This document shows, one piece after another, positions 2,441 to 17,228 of a DNA stretch of 64,000 nt. The DNA is taken from assembly GCF_900114435.1 (NCBI RefSeq), contig NZ_FOZK01000003.1:186001-250000 (forward strand), given 5' to 3'. The stretch is from Halomicrobium zhouii (GTDB lineage: Archaea > Halobacteriota > Halobacteria > Halobacteriales > Haloarculaceae). Position 1 is the first letter of the stretch; each line of letters starts with the position of its first letter. The notes below the pieces were generated by a model. It was not told where the DNA came from. It was given only the letters and a program-made list of their open reading frames with translations, and made no database searches. The position numbers and the translations under genes are program-made.

Positions 2441-3379
2441 ATGCGCGTCTCGGTCGTCCTCTGTACGCACACGCTCGATCGATACAGCGACTTCTCGGAA
2501 GCGGCCCGGAGTGTGCTCGACCAGACGTACGACGACGTGGAACTGGTCCTCGTCTCCGACGGCGACGAAGCCGTCTACGACCGGTTCCAGAAAGATTTCG
2601 GTGACCGGGACGACGTCGTTCTCCACTGCAACGAGGAGAACGTCGGCCTGCTGCAGAGCCGGAACAACGGTGCCAAGGTCGCCACGGGCGACGTCGTCGC
2701 GTTCGTGGACGACGACGCCGTCGCCGACGAACGATGGGTCGAGGAACTTGTAGACGTCTACGAGGCCCGGGACGTCCGAGCGGTCGGCGGACGTATGACA
2801 CCCGCCTGGATTGCCGGGAAGCCAGCGTTCCTGCCCGAGGAGTTCTACTGGCTCGTCGGCGTGACACAGCGCGGGTTCGGGCCCGCCGACGGCGACGAGG
2901 ACACGCCGGGCGAGGTGCGCAACACCTTCGGGTCGAACATCTCCTTCGACCGCGAGACGTTCCTGGATCTCGGCGGGTTCGAGGACGACATCGGGGGGCG
3001 CAAGGGCGACGCCAACTTGCAAGGCGGCGAGACCGAACTCGCGGCCCGGCTCGACGCCCAGTACGGTTATCGCGTCTACTACAATCCAGACGCGAAGGTC
3101 GCCCACAAGGTGTTCGACTACCGCACCGACCCTGTCTGGCTTCTGGACAGGGCGTTCTGGCAGGGCTACTCCAAGCGAGGGATGGAGGTGTTCGTCCCCG
3201 GGTCGACGGGTGAGGAGTCGGAATTTCTCGGTCAGCTACTCACCGAGTTCGTTCCGTCGCGTATCAGCGACCTCGTTTCAGGACCATCGCTCGAGAAGGC
3301 CCTCCAGCTCGTCATGCTCTTCGTTTTCACGGGCGCCGTCGGGCTCGGGTACCTCTACGGCGTGGTGAAGTGGCAGTGA
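2441..3379 (+). CDS. Family 2 glycosyltransferase (AglE/AglG/AglI-like)
   Basis: This is a 312-residue family 2 (GT-A fold) glycosyltransferase, probably adding a sugar to a lipid-linked glycan at the cytoplasmic face. It opens with MRVSVVLCTHTLDRY, the usual GT2 first strand. It has DGDEA near residue 45, a metal-binding VDDDA near residue 95 and a GGRMTP segment typical of the family. The last about 20 residues form one hydrophobic membrane anchor. The ATG at 2441 is preferred over in-frame upstream ATGs because the GT2 fold begins there and GGAGTGA stands just before it. An upstream TATA-like sequence CTTATATG at 2328-2335 leaves room for a longer leader or N-terminal extension. It is divergent from aglB. 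The sugar and position in the glycan cannot be told. Confidence 0.88.
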   Translation: MRVSVVLCTHTLDRYSDFSEAARSVLDQTYDDVELVLVSDGDEAVYDRFQKDFGDRDDVVLHCNEENVGLLQSRNNGAKVATGDVVAFVDDDAVADERWVEELVDVYEARDVRAVGGRMTPAWIAGKPAFLPEEFYWLVGVTQRGFGPADGDEDTPGEVRNTFGSNISFDRETFLDLGGFEDDIGGRKGDANLQGGETELAARLDAQYGYRVYYNPDAKVAHKVFDYRTDPVWLLDRAFWQGYSKRGMEVFVPGSTGEESEFLGQLLTEFVPSRISDLVSGPSLEKALQLVMLFVFTGAVGLGYLYGVVKWQ

Positions 3380-3406: not shown

Positions 3407-3413
3407 CCTTATG
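3407..3413 (+). promoter_or_regulatory. TATA-like box of the 3438 glycosyltransferase
   Basis: CCTTATG is centred 28 bases before the ATG at 3438. This favours that start over the in-frame ATG at 3411, which lies inside the box. Confidence 0.5.
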
Positions 3414-3437
3414 CCGCTCTCGTGGTTCGAATCGGCC

Positions 3438-4634
3438 ATGATTGGCGCGTCGGCGGACGGGTCTGAATCGGCCGCTTTCGACGACGCGATCTCGGATCTT
3501 GACGTCGCTCTCGCCCACTGGCACGTCAACGCCTGGGGTGGTGCCGAGTACCTCGTGACGAAACTCGCGGAGGTTCTCGACGTCGACCGGATTTACACGA
3601 CTGGGACGCCATCTCCCGACGACCCGAACCCGTACGGCGACGTCGAGTTCTACGACGTGACCCAGGACCTCTCACCGGCGCCCCTGCGTCGATTCCAGAC
3701 CCGGTTCGGCCGCGTGTTCGAGTACGCACTCTGGGAGGACGTCGACTGGCGCGAGTACGGCTATCCCGACGTCCTCGTCACATCGGGGGCGACGACGCGG
3801 GCTGTCATCACGCCGGACGACACCCTGCACGTCAACTACTGTCACTCGCCGCCGCGGTGGTTCTACGACCTCTATCACGACCGGAAAGGCTCTCTTTCGG
3901 GGATGCTCGCCCGGCCAATCGTCCGGTATCTCCGCATGCGCGACATGACTGTCGACCCACGCGTCGACCGCTACTTCGTCAACAGTCCCATCATCGCCCG
4001 ACGATTGAAGAAGTTCTTCAAACGCGACGGGGAGGTTCTCTATCCGCCGCTCGACCTCGATACGTATCACAATGACGGCGACGAGGGATTCTATCTCCAC
4101 CTCGGCCGGCTCGACGAGGAGAAAGGCATCGAGGCGGTCGTGGAGGCGTTCGCCGCCGGGACGGACCGGAAACTCGTCCTCTGTGGCGGCGAGGGTGACG
4201 CCGACGACGACGTCCGTGCCCTGATAGACCGCGCCGCGAACATCGACTATCGTGGGTTCGTCTCCCAGGAGGAGAAGCATCGTCTCCTGGCCACCTGTCG
4301 CGCCGTCGTCTTCAACGGTCGCAACGAGGATTTCGGCATCGTCCCCATCGAGGCGAACGCGAGCGGTAAGCCGGTGCTGGCCCGAAACGAGGGCTTTCCC
4401 GGCCTCTTCGTCGAGGACGGCGAGAACGGGCTTCTCCACGACGGGACTCCGCGTGGGATCGTGGATGCAGTCGACAGGCTCGAACGGGACGGCGTCTCCG
4501 GAGATCGCCGGTCGATGGTCGAAAACTTCTCAATCGAAGCGTTCGAGAATCAGCTCACTGAGACGCTGGTCGAGCGATACGAGTCGTTCGAGACGGCGAT
4601 CGAGACCAGCGACGACTTACGACGAACTCGTTGA
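3438..4634 (+). CDS. Family 4 glycosyltransferase
   Basis: This is a 398-residue GT-B fold retaining glycosyltransferase (GT4). The N-terminal half has HVNAWGGAEYLV, the glycine-rich acceptor-side loop. The C-terminal half has HLGRLDEEKGIEAVVEAF and the donor-site E-x7-E motif EDFGIVPIE (Glu297 and Glu305). The stop is 3 bases before the next gene, so 3438-6946 looks like one operon: GT4, phosphodiesterase-fold protein, deacetylase-like protein. The start at 3438 fits a TATA-like box at -28. The likely role is glycan assembly with AglB. The specific sugar is unknown. Confidence 0.88.
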   Translation: MIGASADGSESAAFDDAISDLDVALAHWHVNAWGGAEYLVTKLAEVLDVDRIYTTGTPSPDDPNPYGDVEFYDVTQDLSPAPLRRFQTRFGRVFEYALWEDVDWREYGYPDVLVTSGATTRAVITPDDTLHVNYCHSPPRWFYDLYHDRKGSLSGMLARPIVRYLRMRDMTVDPRVDRYFVNSPIIARRLKKFFKRDGEVLYPPLDLDTYHNDGDEGFYLHLGRLDEEKGIEAVVEAFAAGTDRKLVLCGGEGDADDDVRALIDRAANIDYRGFVSQEEKHRLLATCRAVVFNGRNEDFGIVPIEANASGKPVLARNEGFPGLFVEDGENGLLHDGTPRGIVDAVDRLERDGVSGDRRSMVENFSIEAFENQLTETLVERYESFETAIETSDDLRRTR

Positions 4635-4637
4635 TAC

Positions 4638-6152
4638 ATGACCGACACTATCGTACTCGGCCTCGACGGCGCCAACTGGGCTCTACTGGAGCCCTGGATC
4701 GAAGACGGACGGCTTCCGAACATCGCTTCGCTCCGCGAATCGGGTGTCTGGACCGACATGGAGAGCTGTCTCCCCCCGGTAACGTGCCCCAATTGGCGCT
4801 GCTACTCTACCGGAAAGAACCCCGGCAAACTGAGCGTTTTCTGGTGGGAGAAGATCGATACCGATGCACGGACGCTCACGACGCCGAACTCGCGTTCTTT
4901 CAAGAGCGCGAACTACTGGGACTATCTCAACGACGAAGGGCTGACTGCGGGTATCGTGAACCTCCCGATGTCGTACCCGCCGTTCGACGTCGACGAGTAC
5001 ATGGTGGCCGGCGGCCCCGGAAGCGAACAGGAATCCTATACGTACCCACCGGAGTTGGCCGACCAACTCGACGGTGACGGCTACCGCTTGCACCCCGATA
5101 CCCCCGTCGCGTCGAAGGAGGACCGGGCGGCGGCCGACGCGATGGTCGACCTCATTGACCAGCGCCTGGCGACGTTCAGGCAACTGCTCGACGACGGCGA
5201 CGTCGACGTCGCGCACCTGACCGTCTTTTACGTCAACGTCCTCCAGCATTTCTTCTGGCGTGGCGAACCGACCCGCAGCGCCTGGGAGGTCATCGACGAG
5301 CACATCGGTGCGATCCGCGAAGACTACCCAGACGCGACGCTGATGCTGATGTCGGATCATGGCTGTAAAGACGTCGACACCGTCTTTTACATCAACAGCT
5401 GGCTCGAAGAAGAGGGGTATCTGGTGACGGAGACCGATGCGGCGGACGCCCTCACCGGCGTGGGAATCAACAAGAAGGAGATTTCCAAGCTGGCTCACAA
5501 ACTCGGTGTGCACGATCTCGTTACGAGCCTGGCTCCGGAGTGGCTGACGTCGTCTATCCCCGAAGACGAGGAGGGGTTCAAACGCGAACAGAAACTCGAG
5601 AAGGTCGACTGGGACCGCTCACGTGCCATCGCCAGCGGCCAGGGACTCGTCTACCTCATCGACGACGACCCGGCGACGCGAGACGAACTCGTGGCCGACC
5701 TCGAATCACTGACCAACCCGAGCGGCGCCCCCATAGCGAGGGAAGTCTTCACCAGCGAAGAGGCTTACAGCGGCGACTACGTCAGTGATGCACCTGACAT
5801 CGTCTTCGATCAGCGGCCCGGGGTGCACACCAGCGGCGCGATCGGGTCCAATCCAGTCTTCGATGACGTCGGTCACTGGGAAGCGGAGAACATCAGGACT
5901 GGTCTTTACCTGGCCGACGGCCCCGACGTCGACGCGGATTCGCTGCCGGAGACCATCTCGATAACCGACGTCGCCCCCACAGTGCTCACCAGCGTCGACT
6001 GCGCTGTCCCCAGTGACGTCGATGGGGAGCCCCTCGATCTGTTCAGCGATGCGGCGGTTCGGGAACGGGAACCCATTCCGTTCGACGGCCTCGAGTCCTC
6101 GTCGGGTGAAGAGGTGCAGGAACGTCTCGAAGACCTCGGCTACCTCGAATGA
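4638..6152 (+). CDS. Type I phosphodiesterase/nucleotide pyrophosphatase-fold protein
   Basis: This 504-residue protein has the alkaline phosphatase superfamily fold. The N-terminus IVLGLDGANW holds the first metal Asp (Asp10). The nucleophile region is PPVTCPNW with Thr49, as in nucleotide pyrophosphatase/phosphodiesterases. A later MSDHGCK carries metal ligands. The C-terminus ends RLEDLGYLE, a tail shared with four neighbouring superfamily members. No signal peptide is seen, so it may act at the cytoplasmic side or on lipid-linked intermediates. It starts 3 bases after the upstream glycosyltransferase and overlaps the next gene by 4 bases (ATGA), so coupling is likely. It may hydrolyse or transfer a phospho group on a glycan or lipid; the substrate is not known. 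Confidence 0.82.
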   Translation: MTDTIVLGLDGANWALLEPWIEDGRLPNIASLRESGVWTDMESCLPPVTCPNWRCYSTGKNPGKLSVFWWEKIDTDARTLTTPNSRSFKSANYWDYLNDEGLTAGIVNLPMSYPPFDVDEYMVAGGPGSEQESYTYPPELADQLDGDGYRLHPDTPVASKEDRAAADAMVDLIDQRLATFRQLLDDGDVDVAHLTVFYVNVLQHFFWRGEPTRSAWEVIDEHIGAIREDYPDATLMLMSDHGCKDVDTVFYINSWLEEEGYLVTETDAADALTGVGINKKEISKLAHKLGVHDLVTSLAPEWLTSSIPEDEEGFKREQKLEKVDWDRSRAIASGQGLVYLIDDDPATRDELVADLESLTNPSGAPIAREVFTSEEAYSGDYVSDAPDIVFDQRPGVHTSGAIGSNPVFDDVGHWEAENIRTGLYLADGPDVDADSLPETISITDVAPTVLTSVDCAVPSDVDGEPLDLFSDAAVREREPIPFDGLESSSGEEVQERLEDLGYLE

Positions 6153-6946
6153 CTGTCTGCATCACGGGCGACGTCCACCACATGTCCATGGAGACCCGCG
6201 ACCAGGCGTACATGGACGGAACCGAGGTCGAAGCAGCCGTGGAATACGCTCGAATCGCGGGTAAATACGATGTGCCAGTCACGCTGTTTCTCACCGGTAA
6301 GAGCGTCATAGAGGAACCTGAAAAGGTCCGTACACTCGTCGCCATGGACAACGTCGAACTCGGCGGTCACGACTACTGGGCGTTCACAACGCCCGTTCAC
6401 GCAGCCTGGCGGGCGCTAGGTAAGGTCACGAGGAATCGGATAGGCTCGTGGAACGGACCACGCCCCTTCCAGGCTCACGAGATTCGGAAGACTGTGGCGG
6501 CGTTCGGCGATCTCGGTGTCACCGTTCGGTCCTGGCGCGATCACGCCTACCGTCACGACCGCCACACTGCGGACCTCCTCTCACAGTACGACATCACCCA
6601 CTTCTCCGACACCGTCGAACCTGACGGGACAGTCCACAAGGAAAACGGGCTTACGGTCGTCCCCGTTAACACGCCACCTGATCACGAGCATGTTTATCAT
6701 TCGTTCCGGACGCGCGACTTCGTTGCTAACGACGACTTCGAGGGGCCATTCGGGGCTGAGTCTCGGGACGTGGAGGACTGGGCCGAATGGGTCCTTGACC
6801 ACGTTGCCGACCACCGATGTGCGGGCAAGACCGCGACCGTGCTCGCCCACCCGGCCTGTATGCAGCTCGCGGATGGGTTCACGGCATTCGAAGACCTGTG
6901 TGCTGCCATCGATGGCGGTCGTTTTCTCTCGGCCGTCGAGGGCTGA
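6149..6946 (+). CDS. Polysaccharide deacetylase-like (NodB-fold) protein
   Basis: This 265-residue protein resembles carbohydrate esterase family 4. Residues 1-80 match the start of the fold: ITGDVHHMSM stands where TFDDGP is usual, then VTLFLTGKS, then ELGGHDYWAF where the H-(S/T)-x-x-H metal motif is expected. Asp8 and His74 are kept, but the second His of that motif is absent. It either uses a different metal arrangement or is not a classical deacetylase. A later segment, VRSWRDHAYRHD, could supply other ligands. It overlaps the upstream phosphodiesterase-fold gene by ATGA. The context suggests modification of an N-acetylated sugar in the surface glycan. Confidence 0.72.
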   Translation: MTVCITGDVHHMSMETRDQAYMDGTEVEAAVEYARIAGKYDVPVTLFLTGKSVIEEPEKVRTLVAMDNVELGGHDYWAFTTPVHAAWRALGKVTRNRIGSWNGPRPFQAHEIRKTVAAFGDLGVTVRSWRDHAYRHDRHTADLLSQYDITHFSDTVEPDGTVHKENGLTVVPVNTPPDHEHVYHSFRTRDFVANDDFEGPFGAESRDVEDWAEWVLDHVADHRCAGKTATVLAHPACMQLADGFTAFEDLCAAIDGGRFLSAVEG

Positions 6947-6966
6947 CCGCTGAAGTGACTCGAAAT

Positions 6967-6974
6967 GTTTTATC
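6967..6974 (+). promoter_or_regulatory. TATA-like box of the 6999 sulfatase-fold gene
   Basis: GTTTTATC is centred 28 bases before the ATG at 6999, so this gene probably has its own leaderless promoter. Confidence 0.55.
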
Positions 6975-6998
6975 ATCCATGCGAATGAGCAAGCTCCA

Positions 6999-8381
6999 AT
7001 GAAGACGTTACTGCTGACCGTCGACGCACTTCGGGCCGACCACCTCGGTCAGTACGGCTACGAGCGAGATACCATGCCGGTGCTTGACGATCTCGTTGAG
7101 GACGGAACTCGTTTCACGTCGGCATTCGCAAACGGGACGTACACTCGCATCTCGGTTCCTTCGTTCCAGACATCGCAATATCTCGCGTACGAGAACTTAG
7201 AGGCGATGCCAAAGATCGCACCGATCCTGGAAGATGGCGGCATCGAGACCGCGGTGATTGGGACTCAGACTGGCATCGGACTCGTACATGGGGGATTCGG
7301 GTATGGGGAAACCATTGATCTCGGTCGTGACGATAACTTCGTCGAGGCTAACGCCGACAGACCGCTTGGGGAGTTAGTCGCCTACCGGGTGAACAAGGTC
7401 GCCACCCGAATCAGTCAAGGGCTCCAGCACCGGGGAGCCGACCGTCTCTACGACCTCCTGAAAAAACCGTATCGGAAATTCTATCCGGAGACGCCCTTCG
7501 AGCACAGCGGCTATACCAGTGCCAAGCGCGTCACCGACCGGGTAATCGACTGGTTCGAGGATACCGAGCGCGAGGACAGTTTCCTGTGGGTCCATTACAT
7601 GGAAGCCCACCGTCCCTATGGCGTCCACGATGAAGACCCAGCTTACCTCGAAGGCACAGTTGATCGGGAACGTCTCTACGATCTGATGAAGACTGCGGGC
7701 ACGGATCCCGACCAGGTCTCTGAATCCGACCGGCAACTCATGATAGACCTCTACGACTCGGACGTTCGTTACTGCTCGCGCCACATCTCTCGGCTCTTTG
7801 ATTACCTTCGCGAGAAGGGCCACTGGGACGAGACGAACATCGTCTTTTCAAGTGATCACGGTGAGGAGCTCTACGAACACGGGAAGTTCTTTCATCGAAA
7901 CTACCCGTACGATGAGCTCCTCCACGTGCCGCTGATTATAAAACGAGCTGAAGACTCTGAGGGCGGGGACGTGGTCGCCGGTCAGCGCCAACTGCTCGAC
8001 CTCGCACCGACAATCTGTGCGTTCCACGGCCTCGATCCGGATGATTTCAGGTTCCTCGGGACCCCCTTGTTCGAGGGCGACTCACGAGAAGTAATTGCGC
8101 TCGGCCAACCAAACGATCAGGATGCAGCCGTAGCGGTCCGGTATGACGGCTGGAAGTACATCGACACCGGTGACGACGAGTTGCTTTTCGAACTCTCAAC
8201 TGACCCAGACGAGACCGAAAACGTCGTCGCCGACAACCCGGATGTGGCGGCCCGCCTCTCGCGCTGTATCCCTGACTCCATTTTCGAACGCGACGTGGAA
8301 GACCCCCGGGTACCGGAGGACGAAGTCGACCGCGAGCATCTGGAGGCTCTGGGGTACATGGAACTGCGCGAGGAAGACTGA
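6999..8381 (+). CDS. Sulfatase-fold hydrolase or transferase (first of three)
   Basis: This 460-residue protein is of the sulfatase/alkaline phosphatase superfamily. It begins LLLTVDALRADHLGQYGY, with Asp9 as the metal ligand. The nucleophile region reads TRISVPSF: a Ser (Ser52) replaces the Cys of C-x-P-S-R, and Phe replaces the Arg. A metal-binding SSDHGEELYEHGKFFHR follows later. The C-terminus has LEALGYM. Because the formylglycine signature is broken, it may be a Ser-type hydrolase or a phospho-group transferase rather than a true sulfatase. No signal peptide is visible. It is convergent with the next gene, with 20 bases between them. The DNA is less GC-rich than the flanks. Confidence 0.85.
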   Translation: MKTLLLTVDALRADHLGQYGYERDTMPVLDDLVEDGTRFTSAFANGTYTRISVPSFQTSQYLAYENLEAMPKIAPILEDGGIETAVIGTQTGIGLVHGGFGYGETIDLGRDDNFVEANADRPLGELVAYRVNKVATRISQGLQHRGADRLYDLLKKPYRKFYPETPFEHSGYTSAKRVTDRVIDWFEDTEREDSFLWVHYMEAHRPYGVHDEDPAYLEGTVDRERLYDLMKTAGTDPDQVSESDRQLMIDLYDSDVRYCSRHISRLFDYLREKGHWDETNIVFSSDHGEELYEHGKFFHRNYPYDELLHVPLIIKRAEDSEGGDVVAGQRQLLDLAPTICAFHGLDPDDFRFLGTPLFEGDSREVIALGQPNDQDAAVAVRYDGWKYIDTGDDELLFELSTDPDETENVVADNPDVAARLSRCIPDSIFERDVEDPRVPEDEVDREHLEALGYMELREED

Positions 8382-8401
8382 TTATCGATGGACTCGGGAT
8401 C

Positions 8402-9853
8402 TCACTTAATGTAGCCGAGCGCTTCGAGTTGCTCGCCGAGGTCGTCGGGTTCGACCGCATCTTCGATACTGTAGTGCTCGTAGGCGTCCAGCGCGTAGTG
8501 GTCGCCGACACGGCCTAGCATGTCTTCGAGGACTGACGGCTCAGCAGCCGCGCGGTTCTTCCGCTCGTACTGATCGTCGGGGATATAGAATAGTTCGTCG
8601 GCGTCGTTTTCCTGAACCGAGGTGACGAGCTTCCACTCGTCGGTCCGACAGGCCGTGATCCGGTTGCTAAGGTCAATATCACGCCAGCCACCGGAGGCGA
8701 TCTGGCTGAAGACTGTCCGATCGTCCGGCATCGGTCTTTCACCCCGAAGTATCGGGTCGAGCGAAACCCCGTGGAAGGTGTCCGGAATCGCTGATTCTTC
8801 ACAGGTGGCGTCCAGCAACGTTGGCGCGATGTCGATGGTCGAAGTTACGCCTTCGGGGAACGAGATGTCCTCATTACCTCGCCTGACGATCAGTGGGACG
8901 CGGACGAGCTCATCGTAGGGTCGGCCGCCGTGGGCCAGTTCACCGTGTTCACCGAACGCTTCTCCGTGATCGCCGACGAGCATCGCAACTGAGTCTTGCC
9001 AGTATCCCCGTTCCCGCAGGCCGTCGATTAAGCGACCGATCTGGTCGTCCACCACCCGCACGGACGCGTCGTAGAGATCGGAAACGACCGAAACCTCTTG
9101 CTCTGTCACCTGGTCCTCTTTCGTGTTGACCTTATCGTTGATTCGCCACAATTCGCCGTCCGAAACCTGTTCGTCGAGGAACTGATCGCGGTAGGATTTT
9201 GGAGGAACGTACGGCGAGTGCGGTTCCATAAAGTGGATCCACAGGAACAGCGGCTTTTCATCCGAGAGGGCGTCCAGGTACTGGAAGGTTCGGTCGACAG
9301 CCGCACTGGCCGAGTCGTGCGGTGCGGTGCGCGATCCGATCTGCCGGTAGAGCGACTCGACCAGACGATATGCCAAACTGTCCTGGTCGAGTGTCTCATA
9401 GACTTTTTCTTTCGCTCTCTCCAGGTAATCGTCCGTTCGCGAGGGGCCAGTCCCGTCGTCCTCGTCCCAGAGGCACATTTCCGGGTCGGAAACGACGGTC
9501 TGCTCACTATCGTAGTACAGGTCCCACCCCCGATCCCACCCGAACTGAGAGTGCAGTTGCGTATTCGTGTTGATGCCAAGGGTCCGAAAACCACGATCTC
9601 GAAAAACCTCTGCAATCATGTGGCGGTCTCCCGTCAACTGAGCGTACCCGCCGTACATCAGCGGGTACGACGAACAGAGGATCCCCGGGAAACTCGTCCG
9701 GGTGTTCGGTCCAGTCGTGATGGCCTGGTCACAGAACGCGCCCTCTTCTGCAAGGGCGTCCATGGTGGGAGAGACCGGGCGGTCGTATCCAGCGACCGAG
9801 AGGCAGTCGTATCGCAAACAATCGACGGTTATCAGGATAGCATTCCGTGGCAT
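8402..9853 (-). CDS. Sulfatase-fold hydrolase or transferase (second of three)
   Basis: This 483-residue sulfatase-fold protein starts MPRNAILITVDCLRYD. Asp11 is the metal ligand. The nucleophile region reads TRTSFPGI, so Ser54 stands in the place of the formylglycine Cys, and Gly and Ile replace the Ser-Arg. A VGDHGEAFGEHGELAHGG metal motif comes later. The protein ends with a LEALGYIK tail. The ATG at 9853 is chosen because the fold begins there; in-frame upstream codons exist but encode unlikely sequence, and a TATA-like CTTTTGA lies about 30 bases upstream. It is divergent from the third family member at 9991. Confidence 0.85.
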   Translation of the reverse strand: MPRNAILITVDCLRYDCLSVAGYDRPVSPTMDALAEEGAFCDQAITTGPNTRTSFPGILCSSYPLMYGGYAQLTGDRHMIAEVFRDRGFRTLGINTNTQLHSQFGWDRGWDLYYDSEQTVVSDPEMCLWDEDDGTGPSRTDDYLERAKEKVYETLDQDSLAYRLVESLYRQIGSRTAPHDSASAAVDRTFQYLDALSDEKPLFLWIHFMEPHSPYVPPKSYRDQFLDEQVSDGELWRINDKVNTKEDQVTEQEVSVVSDLYDASVRVVDDQIGRLIDGLRERGYWQDSVAMLVGDHGEAFGEHGELAHGGRPYDELVRVPLIVRRGNEDISFPEGVTSTIDIAPTLLDATCEESAIPDTFHGVSLDPILRGERPMPDDRTVFSQIASGGWRDIDLSNRITACRTDEWKLVTSVQENDADELFYIPDDQYERKNRAAAEPSVLEDMLGRVGDHYALDAYEHYSIEDAVEPDDLGEQLEALGYIK

Positions 9854-9990
9854 CGGGAGTCGATACGCTTCATCAACTCTCAAAAGGATAGTAAAATTTT
9901 GGATTTCCCAGGGAAGTCTGGAACGAACGACGAACCGCCACAAATTCGAAGGCAAATACTAATGTACGCTGTATCGGAATATCGACGCAA

Positions 9991-11349
9991 ATGCCCGTAT
10001 CTAACGTTGTCCTCGTTACCATTGACAGTCTTCGGTACGATAGATCTCTCAGATCTGACCGGGACGTTGATCCGGCACCAACTCTCTCAGAACTCGCCGA
10101 GAAGGGATTCTCTTTCGAGAACGCGTTCGCGAATGGGCCAAACACGCCCTCCAGTTTTCCAACCCTGCTGACAGGCACCTACCCCGCGATGTATGGAGGC
10201 TACCGCTATCTCGACGAACGCCGCCCGTTTCTCTCGGAAACGCTTCAGAACGCGGGGATGCGGACAGTCGGCTACCACTCGAACCCCCATTTGGGCCCCG
10301 AGAAAAATTTCAATCACGGATTCGATACGTTCAACGACGGCTCTGAGGATGACGACGATGCGCGCACTATCAAGAACGTTGTCGACGAGCACGTTCCCTC
10401 TGATTCCTGGCTTTACAGTATTCTCCGGCGGGTCTGGCACTACCTGACGTTGACTACCGACACCTCTGCCTATGCGCCCGCGACCGAAATCACCAACCAG
10501 GCCATCGACTGGCTGGAGACTAACTGGGACGGCAAAAGCCCCTACTTCATGTGGCTCCACTACATGGACGTCCACTACCCGTTTACGCCGCCGGACCGCT
10601 TCTTCGAGGACATCGGTGCCGACCCACTTTCGACCCGACGGACGGCAGACCTCAACGGCCGGATGCAGGAGAATCCCGAGTCTCTCACTGCGGAGGACGA
10701 TGCGGACCTGCTCACCCTTTACGACGCCGAGATTCGGTACATGGATCACAACCTGAACCGTCTCCTCGAAGCGCTCGAAGCACAAGACGCCCGGGAGGAC
10801 ACGGCCATCGTCGTCACCGCGGACCACGGGGAGGCGTTCGGCGAACACGGTCGCTACGGCCACCATCCCTACAACTACGACGAACTCGTCCACGTCCCAC
10901 TGGTGTTCGACGTACCCGGCCGGGAAGGACGACGAATCGATCAGCAGGTTTCCCTTATCGACGTACCACCGACGCTCTACGACCTACTAGGTGTCGAGAC
11001 TCCCGCCGCTGTTCAGGGGCACAGTCTGAAACCACTCATGGACGGGGACGAGCGTGAAGAGGGCGTGGTCATCTGCACCGCATCCGGCGGGGAGATGTTG
11101 GCGACTCGAACGCCGGAGTGGAAGCTCCTGTGGGACCGAGAGCAGGATACGGTCGAACTGTACCACCTCGTCGATGATCCTGGGGAGACCGTCGACGTAA
11201 GCGGGGAGAATCACGAGGTCGTAGAACGGTTCCGGAACCTACTCGAAGACCACATTGCTGAGGCACGCGCTACCGACACCGACCTTCCGGACGTGGAGGA
11301 GAGCGACGAGGTAAAACAGCGTCTCGAAGACCTGGGATACGTCGACTGA
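9991..11349 (+). CDS. Sulfatase-fold hydrolase or transferase (third of three)
   Basis: This 452-residue protein begins MPVSNVVLVTIDSLRYD (metal Asp12). Its nucleophile region is NTPSSFPTLLTG, with Ser55 at the Cys position and Thr-Leu in place of Ser-Arg. The metal motif TADHGEAFGEHGRYGHH follows. It ends RLEDLGYVD. It is closer to the 8402 protein than to the 6999 protein (shared SFP, YPxMYGG and GEAFGEHG segments), so the pair may be an old duplication. AAATACTA at 9954-9961 is a possible TATA-like sequence. It is convergent with the next gene 14 bases away. A role in surface-glycan modification is inferred from context only. Confidence 0.85.
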   Translation: MPVSNVVLVTIDSLRYDRSLRSDRDVDPAPTLSELAEKGFSFENAFANGPNTPSSFPTLLTGTYPAMYGGYRYLDERRPFLSETLQNAGMRTVGYHSNPHLGPEKNFNHGFDTFNDGSEDDDDARTIKNVVDEHVPSDSWLYSILRRVWHYLTLTTDTSAYAPATEITNQAIDWLETNWDGKSPYFMWLHYMDVHYPFTPPDRFFEDIGADPLSTRRTADLNGRMQENPESLTAEDDADLLTLYDAEIRYMDHNLNRLLEALEAQDAREDTAIVVTADHGEAFGEHGRYGHHPYNYDELVHVPLVFDVPGREGRRIDQQVSLIDVPPTLYDLLGVETPAAVQGHSLKPLMDGDEREEGVVICTASGGEMLATRTPEWKLLWDREQDTVELYHLVDDPGETVDVSGENHEVVERFRNLLEDHIAEARATDTDLPDVEESDEVKQRLEDLGYVD

Positions 11350-11362
11350 ACTTTCCAGCGAG

Positions 11363-12223
11363 TCAGAGATAACCGAGGTCCTCTAATCGATTCTGGATCT
11401 GTTCGCCGCTGGCTTCGTTCGTTTCGCCGGTGCGAATCTCGCGGCGTTCATCCTCGACGACCGCCCACGGGACCTCGACAAGTCCAGGAAGCCGGAGTCT
11501 CGGTTTGTGTCCGTCGAGTCCGAGTTTGTCGGCGAGGCCAGAGGCGTGGATCTGTCCGTGGTCCGCCGTTACGACTGTCTTTCCCGGAACGGACTCGATG
11601 ATGTCTTCGGCGAATGGGAGAACGTATTCCAAATTCTCCCTGTACCCTCGCCAGTACTCAGCTTCGTCACGCACTGTATCACTGACTTCACTTCCAACGA
11701 ATGGGCCATGGGGCTGCATAAAGTGTACGATGAGACGCTTGTCCGGAAAGCGGTCGTGTGCCTCGATGGCCGCGTCACGGACGACGTCAGGAAGGACGAC
11801 GCCGGCGGTCTCGTCGAACTGATCCTCCCAGAGTTCGTAAATGTGGTAGAAGGCGTCACCGGCTTCGAGCGAGGTGTGTGGGTTTGCGGAGACGTAGACG
11901 GTATCTCCGAACTCTTCTCCCTGGAAATTTCGTCGTGTAAACTCGCTCGAGTGACTTCCCAGACTGATGCGAGTCTCGTAGCCGTCGAATTCCGAGAGAT
12001 CCACGACTTCCTGAAAGATGTCTGCCCGGCAGGCATCGAGAACGATCATGGTATCCCAGTCTTCGTCCATGACTCTGACGGCGTTTTCGTATCCAGGATA
12101 TCCGGGATAGAGCCTCGTCGCAGTCCCGAAAAGATACGGGACGAGAACTCGATTACGCCACCAGTTGAACGACGAGAAGTTCTTTCGGATCTCTGAAAGG
12201 GCACGTCGGGGACCGACAGTCAT
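11363..12223 (-). CDS. Short alkaline-phosphatase-like fold protein
   Basis: This 286-residue protein has a reduced version of the same fold. DTMIVLDACRADIF (Asp63) is the first metal-ligand strand, GSHSSEF near residues 89-95 may hold the Ser nucleophile, and VVTADHGQIHASG is the Asp-His metal motif. The C-terminus reads RLEDLGYL, the tail found in the other four. The first 50 residues (FNWWRNRVLVPYLFG) may form an amphipathic or membrane-contacting helix. It lies 59 bases after the flippase on the same strand and has its own TATA-like sequence GTATATC near 12248-12254, centred 28 bases before the start. The function is not established. Confidence 0.72.
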   Translation of the reverse strand: MTVGPRRALSEIRKNFSSFNWWRNRVLVPYLFGTATRLYPGYPGYENAVRVMDEDWDTMIVLDACRADIFQEVVDLSEFDGYETRISLGSHSSEFTRRNFQGEEFGDTVYVSANPHTSLEAGDAFYHIYELWEDQFDETAGVVLPDVVRDAAIEAHDRFPDKRLIVHFMQPHGPFVGSEVSDTVRDEAEYWRGYRENLEYVLPFAEDIIESVPGKTVVTADHGQIHASGLADKLGLDGHKPRLRLPGLVEVPWAVVEDERREIRTGETNEASGEQIQNRLEDLGYL

Positions 12224-12281: not shown

Positions 12282-13817
12282 TTATCGTCGAGCAAGGTGA
12301 CGGACCAACCGATCGAATGGCCCGAGGTTCAGGTTGTAGCGTTCTTCCGCCGACCGAATGACCATTACTTCCGTCTTCGAAAGACCGAATACGAACAGGA
12401 CACCGAGAACGAGACTGACAGTGAACGACCCGGTTGCCCCGATCAACCAGGGTATGGTGGTCGGAATTTCGGGTGCAATGATAGTCGCGAATATCGTCAG
12501 GGACGGAATAGCCACGGCCACCGGTCGAATGACCTGCCAAGATATCGGCGTGGTACCAAGATGATAGTATACCTCAACTGCGGCAAGTCCATCTCGCACG
12601 AGGAACGAAATCACCGTTGCAACGGCCGCGCCAGTGATACCGAATTCGGGGATGAGAAGGATATTCAGACCGAGATTGACGGCTGCTGCCACGACGCTGT
12701 TGAACGAGATGGTCTTGGATAGCCCGAGAGACTCGAGTATGGGACTGTGAATACTCAGTACGTTCTTCGCAGCGAATCCTGCTGCCAGGATCAACAGCAC
12801 TGGACCACCGCTTGCGTACTTTGATTCATAGATGATACTAATAAATTCGGTCGAAAACACACCGAGCGGAACGAGTGTACAGACACTCGCGATGACTAAC
12901 CACCTGGCCACTGAACTGAACATATCCATTACGTCGTCGACGTTCCCGTCGCTCTCGAGTTTGCTAGCGATAGGCGATCCGAGATAATTAAACGCCGTCG
13001 AATACATACCCATGAAACTCACAGCGGCGTACGCGACACCGTAGATCCCCGTCGCCGTGTCTCCGAGGAAATAAAGGATGAGAAATATATCGATACTTCG
13101 GTACACGAAACCGGTAACTCCAGAGATAGTAAACGGAAGTGAATACCGAGTGACTCGGGTGAAGAGCTCACTATCGAAGGACGAACTGGTCCGTGGTAGT
13201 GTTCTATGCAAGAGAAGAAGTGCGATGGCCCCACTCACGATGTATGGGGCTGCGTACGCACTCGCCAGGCCTACCTGTCCGAGCCCGTACACGACTGCGC
13301 CAATAACTAGTACGAATCTCGTCACCGGGTGAATTATATTCTTGACGTATACCCGATAGAGCGACCGTTCTTGACCACGGATTCCCCCCACAGAGACGTT
13401 GAGTAACGCGGCGAAGGGGATCGCTGCGCCGAATGTTCGAATGCTGACTGTTACCTCTGGATTACCGAATATCTCGCTAGCAATGAACGAAGCGTTCAGA
13501 GTTACGACTGTACCTAACAGGACTGAGGTGACGAAAGTGATGACGATCGTAGTCGAAGCTAGCATCCGCTTTTCTTCGTCTCCGATCCGGGGGAGATACC
13601 GGGTGAGCCCCGACGCTAGCCCCAGGCCCGCGAGGATACTACCGATGTCCAGTAGTGCTGTTCCAGCTGTCAGTCCGCCGAATTCGCTTACGGAGAGATA
13701 TCTGGCGGCGATTACCTGTGCGACGAACGCGATGAGGAGTTCGAGAAAGAGGCCAACGTACACGATACTGGCCCCTTTGACGATATCGCGGATAGCCTGA
13801 TTCTTGTCTTCGCTCAT
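12282..13817 (-). CDS. Lipid-linked oligosaccharide flippase (MOP superfamily, Wzx/AglR-like)
   Basis: This 511-residue protein is almost entirely hydrophobic, with about 12-14 membrane segments. It has the usual polysaccharide-exporter start (GASIVYVGLFLELLIAFVAQVIAARYLSVSEFG in three parts, beginning near residue 14). Such proteins flip a lipid-linked glycan from the cytoplasmic to the outer leaflet before AglB uses it. It starts 3 bases after the stop of the upstream glycosyltransferase gene, so they are cotranscribed. The coding DNA is clearly richer in A and T than aglB or the genes after 16 kb, suggesting transfer. AglR of Haloferax volcanii has this proposed role; orthology is not shown here. 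Confidence 0.87.
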   Translation of the reverse strand: MSEDKNQAIRDIVKGASIVYVGLFLELLIAFVAQVIAARYLSVSEFGGLTAGTALLDIGSILAGLGLASGLTRYLPRIGDEEKRMLASTTIVITFVTSVLLGTVVTLNASFIASEIFGNPEVTVSIRTFGAAIPFAALLNVSVGGIRGQERSLYRVYVKNIIHPVTRFVLVIGAVVYGLGQVGLASAYAAPYIVSGAIALLLLHRTLPRTSSSFDSELFTRVTRYSLPFTISGVTGFVYRSIDIFLILYFLGDTATGIYGVAYAAVSFMGMYSTAFNYLGSPIASKLESDGNVDDVMDMFSSVARWLVIASVCTLVPLGVFSTEFISIIYESKYASGGPVLLILAAGFAAKNVLSIHSPILESLGLSKTISFNSVVAAAVNLGLNILLIPEFGITGAAVATVISFLVRDGLAAVEVYYHLGTTPISWQVIRPVAVAIPSLTIFATIIAPEIPTTIPWLIGATGSFTVSLVLGVLFVFGLSKTEVMVIRSAEERYNLNLGPFDRLVRHLARR

Positions 13818-13820
13818 TGG

Positions 13821-14930
13821 TTAGCCGACAACCTGATCGAGATATCGTTCGTACCGGTCGTATGTGGCTTCCCACGACAATTCGCCTTGGACGACATCTC
13901 TCCCATTCACTCCCAGTCTCTCTCGCTCGGAGGTATCGGTGGCCAATCGCTCAATCGCGATCGCGAGATCCGACGGCCGTTTCGGCTCACAGAGCAGCCC
14001 GGTCTCACCGTCTTCGACGACTTCCGGGATGCCGCCGACGCGCGTCGCGATGACGGGAGTCGCCGTCGCCTGAGCTTCGAGGACCACCCTCGGGAGCCCC
14101 TCCGTGTGCGACGGGAGAACGAAGACGTCCATCTCGTGGTACAGCGCGGGTATCTGCTCGTAGGGGATCGATCCGAGGAACGTGGCCGCGTCACCGAACG
14201 AGCGTTCCAGCCGCGAGCGTTGGGGGCCGTCTCCCGCGACGATCACCTCGCAGTCCGCCTCCGTCGACCTGAAAGCGGTCGCGAGGTCGTCGAGGCCCTT
14301 GTACGGTTGGAGCCCGCCGACGTAGCCGAGGAGAAAGTCGCCGTCGAGCGATTCGATCCGCTTGTGATAGTCGTCATCCAGCGGTTTGGGTATGTCGTTC
14401 GGATGGAACCGCTCGGTGTCGACGGCGTTGCTCACGTCGAAGATACGGTCCCGGTGGACACCGCGGTCCAGGAGCTGGTCCCGGATGTACTCGCAAACGA
14501 CGAAGTACGCGTCGTGAGGTGCACGGAGTCTTGCTGCCATCGATGCAACGTTTAGCCGGTCGGCAGCGCCTGCGACAGGACGGTCTAGCGAAGAACCGAC
14601 GTGCACTACGTGCGGAACGCCGGCCGCACGCGACGCTATCAGTCCGGGAAGGTAGGTCTTTCGCGTCTTCGAGACGATGACGTCGACGTCATGGCGCCGT
14701 GCCACGTGAGTGGCGTGGACCGCCGTTCGAGTGGGACCCTCAACAAACCGGCTCAGGGGATCAACTGACCTCTGGAAGTTCCGTTCTGGATTTTCGTTCC
14801 AGTCCAGGAGGAGGACATCGTGTCTGCGCTCACGGAGCCCTTGTACGACGTTACGGACGTGAATCGCTCCTCCCCTCACGAGCGCGTCGGAGAACGATAT
14901 CCGTTCCTCCGTGAGAAAGAGGATGCGCAT
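13821..14930 (-). CDS. Family 4 glycosyltransferase
   Basis: This 369-residue GT-B fold protein has an N-terminal acceptor domain (MRILFLTEERISFSDALVRGG) and a C-terminal donor domain with GYVGGLQPYKGLDDLATAF and the E-x7-E motif EGLPRVVLE, followed by VGGIPEVVEDGETGLL. A TATA-like TATTTATC at 14954-14961 on the reverse strand, centred about 28 bases before the ATG, supports the start. It is first in a leftward operon with the flippase. It probably builds the same glycan that the flippase exports; the donor sugar cannot be inferred. Confidence 0.88.
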   Translation of the reverse strand: MRILFLTEERISFSDALVRGGAIHVRNVVQGLRERRHDVLLLDWNENPERNFQRSVDPLSRFVEGPTRTAVHATHVARRHDVDVIVSKTRKTYLPGLIASRAAGVPHVVHVGSSLDRPVAGAADRLNVASMAARLRAPHDAYFVVCEYIRDQLLDRGVHRDRIFDVSNAVDTERFHPNDIPKPLDDDYHKRIESLDGDFLLGYVGGLQPYKGLDDLATAFRSTEADCEVIVAGDGPQRSRLERSFGDAATFLGSIPYEQIPALYHEMDVFVLPSHTEGLPRVVLEAQATATPVIATRVGGIPEVVEDGETGLLCEPKRPSDLAIAIERLATDTSERERLGVNGRDVVQGELSWEATYDRYERYLDQVVG

Positions 14931-16196: not shown

Positions 16197-17228
16197 ATGG
16201 CGGATAGCGACGACGTCTGCGTCCTCGTGCCCACGTACAACGAGGCCGAGACGATCGGTGCAGTCGTGACAGGGTTCGTCGACCAGGGGTACGAACACGT
16301 CCTCGTCGTCGACGGCGGGTCCGCGGACGACACGCAGGCAGTCGCGCGAGAGGCGGGCGCACGCGTCGTCGAACAGTCCGGGACAGGGAAGGGCCAGGCG
16401 GTCCGAGAGGCGCTCCAGCGCCACGTCGACCGTCCGTACGTCCTGATGCTCGACGGCGACTCGACGTATCGGCCCGAGGAGGCCGAACGACTTCTCGACC
16501 CGTTGCTGTCGGGGGAGGCCGAACACGTCATCGGCAACCGGTTTGCGAACATGCAGTCCGGGGCGATGACTCGACTCAACCAGATCGGCAATCGCGTCAT
16601 CAACCGGTCGTTCTCGCTGATTCACGGCCGGGACCTCGTCGACATCCTCTCGGGCTACCGCGCGTTCACGCTCGAATCGGCGAACCGGCTCCACCTCCGG
16701 GCCGACGGGTTCGGCATCGAGACGGAGATGTCCGTCGAGTGCGTCAAACACAACGTCAGGACGGCGGTGGTCCCCATCACCTACGAGCCCCGGCCGGAGG
16801 ACTCCGAGACGAATCTGCGCCCGTTTCGCGACGGCGCGAACATCATTCTTACGCTCTACCAGATGGCCAAGACGAACAATCCGCTGTTCTACTTCGGCAG
16901 CGTGGGGACGCTGAGTACGCTCACGGGGTTCGGTCTGGCGGCCTACGTCGCCTACGAGTGGTTCGTCAGGAGCATCTCCCACGAGGTCATCGCGTTCCTC
17001 GCGGGGTCGGCAGTACTGCTCGGTGTCCAGTTGTTGATGTTCGCCGTCCTCTCGGACATGATCGTCGCCGTCAATCGCGAACAGACCCACCAGATCCAGC
17101 AGATCGCCCGCAAAATCGGCGAGAAAGACGAAGACGCGGGTACAGTGGGTGAGGACGCGGCCGGTCAGTCGGCGGACGTCGAGGAGTCGACGGTCGACGA
17201 GAGCGGCGTCGACCCGGCGGAGTCCTAG
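16197..17228 (+). CDS. aglJ: AglJ-like dolichyl-phosphate hexosyltransferase (GT2)
   Basis: AglJ adds the first hexose of the N-linked glycan to dolichol phosphate. This 343-residue protein has the GT2 start CVLVPTYNEAETIGAVV, the DGGSADDT nucleotide motif near residue 41, the metal motif MLDGDST near residue 84, and ILSGYRAF near residue 149. Two membrane segments follow near residues 228-292, then a charged tail rich in Asp, Glu and Val. This layout of catalytic domain plus two C-terminal membrane helices fits haloarchaeal AglJ; the family name rests on recognition, not on an alignment. It overlaps the convergent 17225 gene by 4 bases. Confidence 0.8.
   Translation: MADSDDVCVLVPTYNEAETIGAVVTGFVDQGYEHVLVVDGGSADDTQAVAREAGARVVEQSGTGKGQAVREALQRHVDRPYVLMLDGDSTYRPEEAERLLDPLLSGEAEHVIGNRFANMQSGAMTRLNQIGNRVINRSFSLIHGRDLVDILSGYRAFTLESANRLHLRADGFGIETEMSVECVKHNVRTAVVPITYEPRPEDSETNLRPFRDGANIILTLYQMAKTNNPLFYFGSVGTLSTLTGFGLAAYVAYEWFVRSISHEVIAFLAGSAVLLGVQLLMFAVLSDMIVAVNREQTHQIQQIARKIGEKDEDAGTVGEDAAGQSADVEESTVDESGVDPAES

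Follow-up and report, generated by a model that had tools for sequence, protein, structure and literature searches.

Alkaline phosphatase-fold proteins sharing a C-terminal tail in an aglB cluster of Halomicrobium zhouii are candidate N-glycan sulfate-adding enzymes

Two proteins encoded in the Halobacterium salinarum aglB cluster, Agl30 (VNG1056C) and Agl31 (VNG1057C), are N-glycan sulfotransferases, as gene deletions, mass spectrometry, and expression in another host have shown (Zaretsky et al., PMC11980604). Deletion of either gene lowered the disulfated glycan more than 50- to 250-fold, each protein sulfated a foreign glycan when expressed in Haloferax volcanii, and the sulfation step occurred on the dolichol-linked glycan (PMC11980604). 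This 2025 report of sulfation by the alkaline phosphatase (AP) fold, and not by an enzyme of the 3'-phosphoadenosine 5'-phosphosulfate (PAPS) type, covers one species and gives no mechanism, nucleophile, or donor (PMC11980604). Here, we describe a set of AP-fold genes in a 64,000-nt stretch of Halomicrobium zhouii contig NZ_FOZK01000003.1, hereafter the window. Positions 4638 to 12223 hold five AP-superfamily genes beside aglB, encoding one type I phosphodiesterase-like protein (PDE, PF01663), three sulfatase-like proteins (A, B, and C, PF00884), and one short AP-fold protein (S). An earlier note on this DNA had recognized both the five genes and their location, and had proposed that they could form an undescribed system tailoring cell-surface glycans with phosphate or sulfate. 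Membership in such tailoring is supported by the surrounding N-glycosylation cluster and by the Halobacterium salinarum relatives, while Agl30 and Agl31 mean that a set of this kind has already been described.

We consider it probable, at roughly two in three, that the locus is an N-glycosylation cluster anchored by aglB and that its AP-fold proteins are sulfate-adding enzymes, working in the cytosol on the dolichol-linked glycan through a sulfo-Thr or sulfo-Ser intermediate. With aglB, an aglG-type gene, a flippase gene, and aglJ around them, the AP-fold genes sit within an N-glycosylation cluster (Table 1). A tight plus-strand run follows aglB and comprises the aglG-type, GT4, PDE, deacetylase-like, and A genes; B and C form a divergent pair, and S belongs to a minus-strand run with the flippase and a GT4 gene. 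Other glycan genes had been described as mixed with the five. This holds for the deacetylase-like gene, a weak PF01522 match inside the stretch, but the glycosyltransferases and flippase flank it rather than intermix. Recent tandem duplication of A, B, and C was ruled out because their pairwise identity is just 29 to 31%. An A orthologue (548 bits) was found within the glycosylation cluster of another family (locus L047). A simple hydropathy scan of the five detected no membrane helix or signal segment (in PDE, no 19-mer exceeded a Kyte-Doolittle score of 1.2), in keeping with soluble Agl31 and with the proposal.

To fix the nucleophile register, A, B, C, and their relatives were aligned with the single C-A-P-S-R sulfatase of the genome, after which 20 bacterial formylglycine (FGly) sulfatases were added. 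The FGly Cys column was occupied by Thr in A, B, and C, and the Cys of the 20 bacterial sulfatases landed in that same column. The register is plain in some homologues: in B- and C-type sequences such as T-A-P-S-M-T-A-M-L-T-G, the downstream [TS]-[GS] is nine residues away, as it is in C-A-P-S-R-S-A-V-F-T-G. The signature of FGly-dependent sulfatases, C/S-x-P/A-x-R, was absent from A, B, and C, which lack its Arg, as the earlier note had stated. That note had also assigned Ser to the FGly position and had suggested alignment with characterized sulfatases; such an alignment retained the first claim and displaced the second, since the peptides SVPSF, SFPGI, and SFPTL are present, yet the Cys column falls on the Thr three residues upstream. 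Ser as the nucleophile of A, B, and C was ruled out by alignment with the 20 bacterial and three archaeal Cys-type proteins. Thr is the nucleophile residue in four of the five (PDE, A, B, and C) and Ser in S only. The PDE motif is like that of nucleotide pyrophosphatases/phosphodiesterases (NPP), and among 13 aligned members of the short family the column was Ser in seven and Thr in six. The metal ligands comprise one acidic residue and a D-H pair, like those of EptA and LtaS, and D63, D221, H222, and H239 of S are kept across the short-family alignment.

Structures were predicted for C and S, a check also suggested in the earlier note. The AlphaFold model of C (predicted local distance difference test, pLDDT, 80) had a sulfatase fold, with a Z-score of 37 to an S1_25 sulfatase and lower scores, 32 to 34, to LtaS/LtaP. 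The S model (pLDDT 82) had an AP fold, and profile searches found no Pfam or NCBIfam family dedicated to S. Neither model distinguishes sulfate from phosphate. The modelled fold is of the AP/sulfatase type, not the P-loop-like one with PAPS motifs that a PAPS-dependent sulfotransferase would have, and no match to a Pfam sulfotransferase family was found.

Overlooked in the earlier note was a C-terminal tail, L-x-x-L-G-Y, common to all five proteins. Across subfamilies they end in L-E-[DA]-L-G-Y followed by one to a few residues, and Agl30, Agl31, and VNG1063H, a third Halobacterium salinarum protein, share the L-x-x-L-G-Y ending (VNG1063H as far as its K-E-L-G-Y was seen). The best BLASTP match between PDE and S was their last 28 residues (54% identity, E 1e-4), and in the C and S models the tail was a short helix outside the aligned core, after a linker with pLDDT below 50. 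At sampled loci, the tail was present in 47 of 49 haloarchaeal PF00884-profile proteins with Thr or Ser at the nucleophile column and in none of three haloarchaeal or 20 bacterial Cys-type sulfatases; the proteins counted comprise orthologues of related species and are not independent, and the short-family rows fit the nucleophile column only loosely. Of the two exceptions, one (L050) seems, judging by the overlapping frames, to be a gene split by a frameshift, with the tail encoded in its other half. Within the Halomicrobium zhouii genome, nine of the 10 PF00884 genes encode the tail, the tenth being the C-A-P-S-R protein. The genome's only formylglycine-generating enzyme gene (FGE, PF03781) adjoins this only C-A-P-S-R sulfatase at G000:C5:200724-203598 (L009, L069), far from the aglB cluster. 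Genome-wide statements here derive from family and pattern searches.

At the DNA level, the pattern LxxLGYx-stop occurred 159 times in 59 genomes, against 11 occurrences for the reversed control. Among 30 inspected loci, 15 encoded AP-fold proteins, 11 encoded CysD-like PP-loop proteins, and two encoded small proteins of about 110 residues. These two small proteins aside, the ending was found to recur in just one further haloarchaeal family, the CysD-like (ATP sulfurylase small-subunit-like) protein (QDKEDLMERLRDLGYM). The small proteins end in RLESLGYL (L113:1195-1524, L109:1501-1845), and that of L113 is convergent to a tailless sulfatase-like gene, which might receive the tail in trans. The tail is neither invariant in Thr/Ser members, being missing in L130, L133, the L113 sulfatase-like neighbor, and an acidobacterial protein (L088), nor exclusive to archaea, as phage-contig relatives carry it. 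No published mention of the tail was found in open full-text literature, which is weak evidence, the search being limited to open text. The tail and the Thr/Ser nucleophile column appear to be the parts of this system that are new. It is conceivable, although we doubt it, that the tail is a docking element marking Thr/Ser AP-fold transferases of sulfate or other groups in haloarchaea, some bacteria, and phages, and recruiting them to a common partner, possibly sulfate-activating machinery, in which case many proteins annotated "sulfatase" would be transferases. A free C-terminus is probably not what is recognized, since Agl30 and Agl31 remained active with tags appended after the tail (PMC11980604).

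Agl30, Agl31, and VNG1063H were compared through peptides obtained by in-frame translation of primers published with them (PMC11980604). The encoded C-termini were HLEDLGYL (Agl30), LEELGYT (Agl31), and KELGYIE (VNG1063H, seen only as K-E-L-G-Y there), and the primers also encoded VHYFQPH (VNG1063H) and DFGHLDM and ITDRTV (Agl30). The motif VH[YF]xQPH is found throughout the short family, S having IVHFMQPH, and ITDR[AT][IV] recurs in the short-family alignment. These short peptides suggest that Agl30 and VNG1063H are members of the short family, which would make S a relative of a proven sulfotransferase. In kind, A, B, and C appear to resemble Agl31, by the PF00884 fold, solubility, and the C-terminal tail. 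Allowing two mismatches, an Agl30 24-mer matched one homologue in 391 genomes, with no Halobacterium salinarum genome among the matches, and the C-terminal 21-mer of Agl31 matched two unrelated bacterial genomes only.

As we infer the reaction, S would be an Agl30-family sulfotransferase, and A, B, and C would belong to a broader sulfatase-like kind that includes Agl31. They would act in the cytosol on the dolichol-phosphate-linked oligosaccharide, ahead of its flipping and its transfer by AglB. Thr (in S, Ser), its side chain held at a D/D-H metal site as in EptA/LtaS, would attack the donor sulfate to form a sulfo-Thr or sulfo-Ser enzyme, from which a hydroxyl of a glycan uronic acid would take up the sulfate. 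The LxxLGY tail, lying beyond a poorly conserved linker, might dock the enzyme. Transfer would be favored over hydrolysis because, without a formylglycine hydrate, the intermediate should be slow to release to water. Replacing formylglycine with Ser is said to trap the sulfated enzyme (reportedly by Recksiek et al. in 1998), which would fit a shift from hydrolase to transferase. PDE is the least certain member and may have another group as its substrate.

Besides the Halobacterium salinarum results and the Thr/Ser column with its D and D-H ligands, the proposal is favored by the distance of the genome's only FGE gene from this cluster, by a second locus (C5:74-83 kb) with the same module of PDE-like, S-family, sulfatase-like, flippase, and GT genes, and by the joint presence of C and S orthologues on a plasmid of archaeon DL31. 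Several points weigh against it. VNG1063H, apparently also of the short family, was without effect on glycan sulfation (PMC11980604); the case for orthology to Agl30 and Agl31 draws on published annotations and on short peptides encoded by primers; and the S model scored as high against EptA-type phosphoethanolamine transferases (EptA, Z 16.3) as against sulfatases (about 15). A donor is not evident either, because a family search of the genome gave no match to ATP sulfurylase (PF01747) and, for adenylylsulfate (APS) kinase (PF01583), just a partial P-loop match. A CysD-like PP-loop protein is encoded at L155:6160-7191 (G000:C2, about 1161160-1162191) and ends in ERLRDLGYM; at least 11 inspected genomes have one. 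This protein could supply activated sulfate, given that no PF01747 ATP sulfurylase was found in the genome. Bacterial CysD has its own G-Y-F ending, so the tail likeness of the CysD-like protein may be coincidence.

The best surviving alternative, in our judgment improbable, is that the five are phospho-group transferases like EptA and LtaS, which use Thr, and that they take phosphoethanolamine, glycerol-phosphate, or the like from a nucleotide or an archaeal phospholipid and pass it to the glycan. The Thr nucleophile and D-H metal pair fit this, as do the NPP-type T-x-P-N motif of PDE and the Z-scores of S to EptA/MCR (15 to 16) and of C to LtaS/LtaP, although C is closer to sulfatase folds. 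EptA and LtaS, however, work outside the cell with membrane domains, whereas the five have no transmembrane segments. The earlier note had said that Ser would suit a phosphatase or phospho-group transferase; a group transferase is indeed a better reading than a sulfatase, but the tested Halobacterium salinarum relatives move sulfate (PMC11980604). The published evidence points to sulfate, with phospho-group transfer possible for PDE and for any single member.

Slightly less probable is that the enzymes tailor a different polymer, such as an exopolysaccharide, O-glycan, or glycolipid, and that proximity to aglB reflects mere clustering of glycan genes. The failure of VNG1063H to affect N-glycan sulfation would suit this, as would a second module in the genome (C5:74-83 kb, L052:9854-17643) that holds PDE-like, short AP-fold, GT4, flippase, and sulfatase-like genes, the three AP-fold proteins all ending in LGY; no aglB was seen in the 20 kb read there. 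What argues for N-glycan tailoring instead is the close packing on one strand with aglG and, in the other run, with the flippase, and loci L047-L050, which carry aglB or aglJ, also hold S-family and sulfatase-like genes. Least likely are hydrolases, that is, cytosolic sulfatases, phosphatases, or phosphodiesterases trimming or recycling dolichol- or nucleotide-linked intermediates, since the FGly signature is absent from all five and relatives add sulfate in vivo, also in a foreign host (PMC11980604), despite the family names (PF00884, PF01663, NPP), the catalytic promiscuity of the AP superfamily, and a PDE most easily read as a hydrolase.

Table 1. Features of the aglB cluster in the window, with strand and supporting evidence.
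Feature	Position	Strand	Evidence
aglB, oligosaccharyltransferase	2263..<1 (runs off window; 1034 aa in genome)	-	WWDYG motif in translation; anchor for tblastn/phmmer locus search
aglG-type glucuronosyl glycosyltransferase, opens tight plus-strand run	2444..3379	+	NCBIfam NF041394 GtaseAglG_Halo, 494 bits (cut-off 440)
GT4 glycosyltransferase	3411..4634	+	PF00534
PDE, type I phosphodiesterase-like, AP fold	4638..6152	+	PF01663, E 3.6e-34; T49 in T-C-P-N-W
PDE C-terminal tail, RLEDLGYLE	6123..6149	+	Translation
Polysaccharide-deacetylase-like	6149..6946	+	PF01522, weak, below cut-off; ATG overlaps PDE stop (ATGA)
Sulfatase-like A	6999..8381	+	PF00884, E 5e-36; T49 at FGly column (T-R-I-S-V); tail HLEALGYM, 8334-8357
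Sulfatase-like B	8402..9853	-	PF00884, E 2e-37; T51 at FGly column (T-R-T-S-F); tail QLEALGYIK, 8405-8431
Sulfatase-like C	9991..11349	+	PF00884, E 3e-46; T52 at FGly column (T-P-S-S-F); D12, D278, H279; tail RLEDLGYVD, 11320-11346
S, short AP fold (Agl30/VNG1063H family, putative)	11363..12223	-	Alignment, model, primer motifs; S92 at nucleophile column; tail RLEDLGYL, 11366-11389
Flippase (Polysacc_synt, AglR/Agl29-like)	12282..13817	-	PF01943, E 2e-24
GT4 glycosyltransferase, one strand run with flippase and S	13821..14930	-	PF00534, E 3e-38
aglJ, dolichol-phosphate glycosyltransferase starting the N-glycan	16197..17228	+	TIGR04182, 459 bits (cut-off 325)

Members of these families also occurred on a plasmid and on predicted viral contigs. 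On plasmid phalar01 of archaeon DL31 (CP002989.1; L161:12001-13916), orthologues of C and S lie side by side and converge as they do in the window, the S orthologue with 67% identity and the C orthologue truncated beside an IS66 transposase. Single-protein queries gave no matches on viral contigs; alignment queries gave relatives, which were used for the models. Short AP-fold members were found on predicted viral contigs (IMG/VR, L136-L151), with an LGY-type ending in about six of 16.

The cluster yields a Thr/Ser nucleophile column, an FGE-independent set with an FGE-dependent control in one genome, and a tag separating likely transferases from true sulfatases. If N-glycan sulfation by these proteins holds true, many haloarchaeal "sulfatase" annotations would need to change, and a new route of sulfate transfer would be open to testing by single-residue mutants.

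Among described systems, Agl30 is like S in being encoded in an aglB cluster, in having no InterPro family, and, on primer-encoded peptides, apparently in a tail and motifs that fit the S family. Residues 21-39 of Agl30 form an N-terminal membrane-associated stretch where S has WWRNRVLVPYLFGTATRLY, and unlike Agl30, S shows no clear transmembrane helix by hydropathy. VNG1063H shares with S its aglB-cluster location, tail, and short-family motif but lacks a sulfation phenotype. Agl31, soluble and arylsulfatase-like by InterPro, resembles A, B, and C in the PF00884 fold, LxxLGY tail, and aglB cluster, whereas Halomicrobium zhouii has three divergent paralogues. FGly sulfatases share the Pfam family and fold with A, B, and C, which differ in having Thr for Cys, no Arg two residues past the Pro, the tail, and no FGE nearby. 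EptA and LtaS share with the set the AP fold and, as a feature that is not decisive, a Thr nucleophile (Ser in S) with acidic and D-H metal ligands, the likeness being one of fold and of weak profile matches far below family cut-offs; they are extracytoplasmic, carry a membrane domain, and move phospho-groups.

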